Assembly (NCBI GenBank): GCA_005805305.1
Contig: SYMW01000230.1
Location: 1-32,648, forward strand
Source of the DNA: Verrucomicrobiales bacterium
GTDB lineage: Bacteria; Verrucomicrobiota; Verrucomicrobiia; Limisphaerales; F1-80-MAGS106
Length of the DNA stretch: 32,648 bases
Direction: 5' to 3'
The notes under the pieces are model-generated. The model worked only from the letters and a program-made list of their open reading frames with translations. It was not told where the DNA came from and did not search any database. How positions within the stretch are numbered: the first letter of the stretch is position 1; each line of letters begins with the position of its first letter. Both the position numbers and the translations under genes were made by a program. Below are positions 10,335 through 11,105 of the stretch, one piece after another.

Positions 10335-10724
10335 CTAGTTGGCCGCTTTTTCGGTTTTCTCACCGGCCTGCATCCAGCCTGAAATACCAGCGGAGAGGTG
10401 TTTCACATTGGTGTAGCCGAGCTTCTTCGCGGCCTTGGCGGCGGCGGTGTAGGCGTTGCATTTCGGTCCGCCACAGTAAGCCACAACCAAAGTCTTTTTG
10501 TCCTCGGGCAGGACCTTGGCGAGTTTCTTTTGGGCGGACCCAAATTCGAGAGCGCCCGGGATGTGGCCTTTCTGGAAGGATTCGGCGCCATTTACATCGA
10601 TGACGACGACGCTTTTCTTTTCGATGGCAGCTTTGAGTTCGGTGATGCTGATGTCTGGGAATTCGCCCGCATAAGCGGCGGCGGCCATCAGTGATGTAAG
10701 GACGAGTGACAGGAGTTTTTTCAT
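10335..10724 (-). CDS. Periplasmic single-domain rhodanese
   Basis: A 129-residue exported protein with a signal peptide (MKKLLSLVLTSLMAAAAYAG). The rhodanese domain covers about 24-120: DVNGAESFQKGHIPGAL (CH2A-like motif) and the active-site loop YCGGPKCNAY, with Cys84 as the predicted persulfide-carrying nucleophile and Cys89 nearby. The C-terminal HLSAGISGWMQAG is typical. Rhodaneses transfer sulfane sulfur or sense thiols; periplasmic single-domain forms often have redox roles. It appears monocistronic, ending in a clear terminator. A second cysteine in the loop is common in CGGPxCN-type periplasmic rhodaneses. Confidence 0.9.
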   Translation of the reverse strand: MKKLLSLVLTSLMAAAAYAGEFPDISITELKAAIEKKSVVVIDVNGAESFQKGHIPGALEFGSAQKKLAKVLPEDKKTLVVAYCGGPKCNAYTAAAKAAKKLGYTNVKHLSAGISGWMQAGEKTEKAAN

Positions 10725-11105
10725 TGAGCTTGTTTGTGTGGTGACTTTTTAGTTTTGCCGAAACCCCAGGCGAATGTTAACCCGCCCGAGTTTTGGGGAT
10801 GATCCATGAGTCGCAGGGCAATCCCTTGGAAAGCATCTTCAGCATGAAAGCAGTTTACCGCATCACCCCGATTCGCACAACTTCTTTGACGTGAGCGGAA
10901 ATTTCATGGTGCATCCGCGAGTTGTCGGTGGAGCGCGACTGTGCTGAAAGCCAGTCGCAGCAGCATCTCAGGCTCGCTATCACGCCAAACCTGCTGCGGC
11001 TGGTGCTTCGCACACAACCGCGCTCCGGGCTGCCAGCCACATTCACCGTCAACCTGCGGATGCACTGAAATTTCATGGGAAGTTGAGAGGCCATCCTGAC
11101 CGGCC
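10725..11105. other. Intergenic region between rhodanese and queD
   Basis: No gene is supported in these 381 bp. The stretch nearest the rhodanese (10725-10860) should hold that gene's promoter, though no convincing -35/-10 pair is seen. The rest is dominated by a palindromic element described separately. Confidence 0.6.
10898..11078. repeat. Imperfect inverted-repeat element (MITE- or REP-like)
   Basis: The two halves are imperfect reverse complements over about 177 bp. Outer arms: GAAATTTCATGGTGCATCCG at 10898-10917 pairs with CGGATGCACTGAAATTTC at 11057-11074, and GTTGTCGGTG pairs with CACCGTCAAC. Inner arms: GGAGCGCG (10930-10937) pairs with CGCGCTCC (11019-11026), and CCAGTCGCAGCAG (10951-10963) pairs with CTGCTGCGGCTGG (10991-11003, one wobble). 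The 12-bp direct repeat GAAATTTCATGG lies at both ends (10898-10909, 11067-11078). No open frame is plausible inside. It could be a non-autonomous mobile element, a dispersed REP-like repeat or a structured RNA. Confidence 0.7.

Follow-up and report, generated by a model that had tools for sequence, protein, structure and literature searches.

A long palindrome in the intergenic DNA of a 32,648-bp stretch from a Verrucomicrobiales bacterium (the window) raises the question of what kind of sequence it is and how it came to lie there. A first-pass annotation, made from the letters alone, had described positions 10898-11078 as nested inverted repeats that fold into one long imperfect hairpin, and had taken it for a non-autonomous element present in dispersed copies, or else for a structured RNA. 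Our analyses indicated the former. The element proper is window 10907-11067, a small correction to that extent, and it is a 161-bp palindromic MITE, non-autonomous and of ISKra4 type (Table 1).

The inverted outer and inner arms were present in the window as described, and their nesting reflects terminal inverted repeats (TIRs), 24 bp long and imperfect, that enclose an inverted pair of REP-like hairpins. Folding of the + strand at 10890-11085 gave -98.9 kcal/mol compared with -69.8 +/- 4.2 for shuffled sequences (z = -6.9, 0/200 shuffles as good), confirming the long hairpin. Two ORFs run across the element on the same strand and overlap one another, and both are mechanical. The ends at 10907 and 11067 were fixed by alignment of copies together with their flanks. 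The 12-bp direct repeat reported at both ends does exist, and it is the target-site duplication GAAATTTCAT(GG), which lies outside the element and has been extended to 12 bp by chance.

Table 1. Features of the element and its surroundings in the window.
Feature	Position	Strand	Basis or remark
MITE, whole element (T/C)GGTGCATCC...GGATGCACTG	10907..11067	+	dispersed copies; ends set by target-site duplications
Left TIR TGGTGCATCCGCGAGTTGTCGGTG	10907..10930	+	matches the CGGTGCATCCGCAAGTTGTCGGT end beside an ISKra4-like transposase
Right TIR CAGTGCATCCGCAGGTTGACGGTG	11044..11067	-	the complete IS in L311 has this CAGTGCATCC form at its far end
Target-site duplication, left copy GAAATTTCA	10898..10906	.	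window sequence and family statistics
Target-site duplication, right copy GAAATTTCA	11067..11075	.	register uncertain by 1 bp; window sequence and family statistics
REP-like hairpin 1, GGAGC-GCGACTG...CAGTCGC-AGCAG	10930..10963	+	core occurs free of TIRs in genomes elsewhere in the order
REP-like hairpin 2, inverted, GGAGC-GCGGTTG...CAGCCGC-AGCAGG	10990..11026	-	repeats in other genomes and own sequence
Intron site, between bases, empty in the window copy	10930..10931	- (antisense)	occupied by a group II intron in 15 sister copies
Predicted -35 hexamer TTGTGC, offset 27	10875..10880	-	best of 46 offsets, score 8.05; weak in the window copy
Predicted -10 hexamer TAAACT, spacer 17	10852..10857	-	same scan
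Putative rhodanese-like gene	10335..10724	-	ORF; name from the first-pass annotation and sequence inspection; downstream of the predicted promoter

Searching the genome that holds the window (G000; 4.56 Mb in 319 contigs, 82% complete) with this stretch identified at least 40 matches at 94-100% identity, from 137 first-look candidates. The fetched part of G000 contained at least 65 distinct insertion sites as judged by the left end and at least 52 by the right end, and all copy numbers given here are minimum counts. The element is therefore short, non-coding and present in many near-identical copies, as MITEs are. A second subfamily, GGTGCATCCACGCG, was approximately 91-93% identical. The left end of the young subfamily has a T and not the conserved terminal C, and CGGTG/CAGTG ends were found in the older subfamily and in the IS described below. 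Many copies broke off at contig ends after approximately 138 bp, so the element accounts in part for the fragmentation of the assembly and explains many of the contig breaks in G000.

Among 58 related genomes, one (G005; SXMN01, Verrucomicrobiales bacterium F1-120-MAGs170), which falls in a different family within the order, had full-length copies at 88-91% identity, located at other sites; two genomes of the same genus had no match to the element. Multiple copies, conservation in a relative and a fold far better than shuffled sequence are the opposite, on all three counts, of the outcome that the first-pass annotation had named as speaking against it. An end-pattern scan of named genomes turned up this TIR with different interiors, in elements of 191 bp (NC_groundwater_1487) and 115-120 bp (LJ-3-4m_bin-0163), and in L181 as a TIR-TIR pair of 41 bp. 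As the interiors differed around the same TIRs, it is the inverted repeats that define the family, with the inside being variable. In L141, L143, L153 and other CAIMTB01 loci, from a genome of uncultured Verrucomicrobia, the same TIRs surround a shorter, unrelated interior (115-120 bp), and these elements are a MITE family of their own. In viral contigs, the TIR patterns gave chance matches only.

The flanks of the copies were informative as to the type of enzyme involved. Among the own copies with both flanks, 26/32 had a target duplication of approximately 9 bp matching at 8/9 positions or better, compared with about 2.5% of shuffled pairs. In G005, 13 of the 19 copies had duplications matching at 8/9 or better (about 3.5% in shuffled pairs). 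REPINs have been proposed to move by RAYT/HUH transposition, which is not expected to leave such duplications, and the duplications thus point to a DDE transposase.

A partner for the element was reached by tracing unpaired element ends to one contig of G000, C138. There, CGGTGCATCCGCAAGTTGTCGGT lies directly beside a 414-aa ORF that is encoded on the opposite strand, and the element and the transposase side of C138 have the same 23-bp end. The C138 ORF matched the NCBIfam ISKra4 model (NF033572) with an E value of 5.7e-52 and a score of 177 bits, below the cut-off of 205, and it matched Pfam UPF0236 above the cut-off of that model. By these profile scores, the predicted transposase is ISKra4-like rather than a formal equivalog (177 vs 205 bits), and the IS on C138, of which one end was seen as the IS is cut by the contig end, is the probable source of the MITE. 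Partner searches with DDE_Tnp_1, IS1 and an ISAs1-associated domain found no partner.

Transposase homologues in G005 (82%, decayed) and G061 (63%) had an end identical or close to this one, and those in G063 and G002 had variant ends. The G061 locus (L311) contains a complete IS of 1519 bp, with CGGTGCATCC on the transposase side and CAGTGCATCC on the other (CGGTGCATCC...GGATGCACTG), and its ends reproduce the CGG/CAG asymmetry of the MITE. The reading frame of this IS is broken and there is no clear duplication. An autonomous partner with matching ends, as is characteristic of a MITE, was therefore seen at one end in G000 and at both ends on the L311 relative. A DruA-like ORF (Druantia protein DruA, PF14236; L248 3424-3921) overlaps the ISKra4-like transposase gene at its start and may belong to the same IS.

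PMC3942029 describes members of the ISKra4 group, ISLre2 and TnGBS as inserting upstream of sigmaA promoters, and as doing so in either orientation if their two repeats are nearly perfect. It gives the ISKra4-group ends as 18-39 bp IRs with a terminal C and 8-9 bp duplications. In its TIR type, its duplications and its insertion upstream of promoters, the element resembles the ISKra4 family as presented there (p-MULT 4, Mutator-like DDE transposases), and it differs in being a 161-bp non-coding derivative found in Verrucomicrobiota.

We examined the outward flanks for promoter-like signals. TTGA was enriched at offset 28, a peak obtained with base frequencies alone and no matrix, and a -10-like signal was present at 50-52. 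Offsets 1-46 of flanks reduced for similarity were then scored with -35/-10 matrices of approximate E. coli frequencies. The best offset was 27-29 in 24/65 own left flanks (p 1e-12) and 16/49 own right flanks (p 5e-8), and in 8/16 (p 3e-6) and 8/20 (p 2e-5) of the two G005 flank sets, compared with 6.5% expected throughout. The mean promoter-score profile was flat outside the peak. The insertions are at a fixed distance from sigma70-like promoters, with the predicted -35 starting 27-28 bp out, which is approximately 11 bp longer than the 16 bp between the -35 and the repeat given for p-MULT 3 in PMC3942029. In the window, the copy lies upstream of a predicted, weak promoter that points to the putative rhodanese gene starting at 10724; a stricter promoter scan of the window did not report this promoter.

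Selection removes insertions in genes, and intergenic DNA is rich in promoters, so an apparent preference for promoters might be a by-product of insertions surviving only between genes. We consider this very unlikely, as one would not expect survival bias on its own to produce a single-offset peak (27-28 bp) on a flat 1-46 background, and each of two genomes and each side of the element showed the peak when taken separately. A targeting rule that holds with the same spacing at unrelated sites in two genomes of different families is directly testable. With MITEs that aim at promoters, dozens of genes would have the same 161-bp DNA upstream at fixed spacing, and this would be a route to coordinated regulatory change.

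The proximity of copies to promoters, together with a fold far better than that of shuffled sequence, could also be read as favoring the second of the original proposals, that the sequence is a structured or cis-regulatory RNA (e.g., a leader or attenuator) that is copied for its RNA function. However, an element that lies upstream of a promoter is not transcribed by that promoter. Across 50 copies, one base pair had changed on both sides, and such compensatory changes, which had been suggested as a check, were in no excess over shuffling. Rfam gave no match to the element at the gathering threshold, and a scan found no terminator-like site. The palindromy arises from the TIRs and the REP pair. 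We regard an RNA function as very improbable, and this half of the original proposal was not borne out, in contrast to the dispersed MITE.

The interior of the MITE has a distribution of its own. Any match to the element was present in 23/58 genomes, and in most of these 23 there were repeat matches to element positions 23-60 and 82-122. These interior repeats were mostly without TIRs and occurred as inverted pairs. Both halves of the interior are small hairpins with GGAG at their head, in an arrangement like that of a REP doublet (cf. PMC3116915). By inspection, G019, G049, G016 and G023 (L069, L070, L072, L074) have MITE-like elements in which the same kind of inverted REP pair is flanked by ends of the GGGCGCATCT type or similar. 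Judged from these sequences, capture or insertion of a REP pair may have occurred more than once, as the observations suggest.

The interior shares with REPINs (PMC3116915) the inverted REP doublet and its short spacer, and G000 has nine RAYT-type (PF01797) matches. The whole unit could accordingly be viewed as a REPIN, in which a RAYT (Y1/HUH) transposase moves the REP doublet and the outer arms are only an extension of the palindrome; the interior is indeed common in the order in the absence of TIRs. Several findings argue against this. The duplications of approximately 9 bp are at the outer ends, and these ends are common to the element and the ISKra4-like IS. None of the nine RAYT-type loci carried the element or the REP core (1.5 kb on each side where the contig allowed), and in 239 kb of G000 sequence, a non-random sample taken around MITE copies, the core was found only within the MITE. 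These data largely refute a RAYT as the mobilizer of the whole 161-bp unit, and we regard the REPIN reading as highly improbable. In contrast to REPINs, which are associated with RAYTs, the element had no RAYT link that we could find; its doublet lies between IS-type TIRs, with target duplications, and is apparently their passenger. This suggests that REP doublets have been spread by a DDE transposase rather than by a RAYT.

Several copies of the MITE had the left TIR followed by a complete group II intron domain V/VI (Rfam RF00029, 77/77) that ended exactly at the junction. There were 18 near-identical intron 3' ends in G000, a nineteenth, divergent match having been set aside; 15/18 were at one nucleotide position in the MITE and 3/18 were elsewhere. 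The MITE copies with the intron belonged to both subfamilies. The near-identical intron ends as a whole were on contigs C25, C102, C133, C182, C200, C214, C223, C297 and others (L258-L275). The intron body and its reverse transcriptase were absent from the assembly. Two contigs begin with (A)CAC before GAGCG, which would fit, on thin evidence, an intron 5' end of GTGT. In the sense of the intron, the insertion point is directly after a REP hairpin. Class C group II introns insert beside hairpins, namely terminators and attC. Some IS elements target REPs, according to PMC1525189. Repeated insertion at one position beside the hairpin of a dispersed repeat is shared with both, and the difference is that the hairpin here belongs to a MITE. 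These findings suggest that a MITE is where this group II intron has mainly settled, and the intron may recognize the REP hairpin there.

Based on these observations, we believe with high confidence that the MITE is moved in trans by an ISKra4-like DDE transposase, targeted to promoters, with a REP pair as passenger and an intron that uses it as a landing site. In such a scheme, the DDE transposase supplied by the ISKra4-like IS would act in trans by recognizing the 23-24 bp TIRs, and insertion would occur approximately 27 bp upstream of the -35 of sigma70-like promoters with approximately 9 bp being duplicated. An inverted REP-like pair, of a kind widespread in the order, would have been captured and carried along, such that most of the DNA between the TIRs would be of non-IS origin. 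For the group II intron, the point where the left TIR meets the first REP hairpin would then be an insertion site available in many copies.

More tentatively, we speculate that these parts form a hierarchy of three layers, in which a promoter-seeking MITE spreads a captured REP doublet to the upstream side of promoters and the intron has specialized on the MITE-REP junction as a safe site in many copies, each layer depending on the one below. The distance to the promoter would be about one DNA turn above that of related transposases, and the REP hairpins, lying upstream of the promoters, may insulate or regulate. Although possible, this wider picture is doubtful.

A different group II intron was observed at the start of another contig of G000 (C286; L277), just downstream of a BlaI-like ORF, with its 3' end unassembled. 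Its RT/maturase was considered as the enzyme of the MITE-inserted intron and rejected, as the tail of its ORF differs from the tail before the 3' end of that intron. The protein is 562 aa with RVT_1 and GIIM domains, and its nearest solved chains include the GsI-IIC RT.
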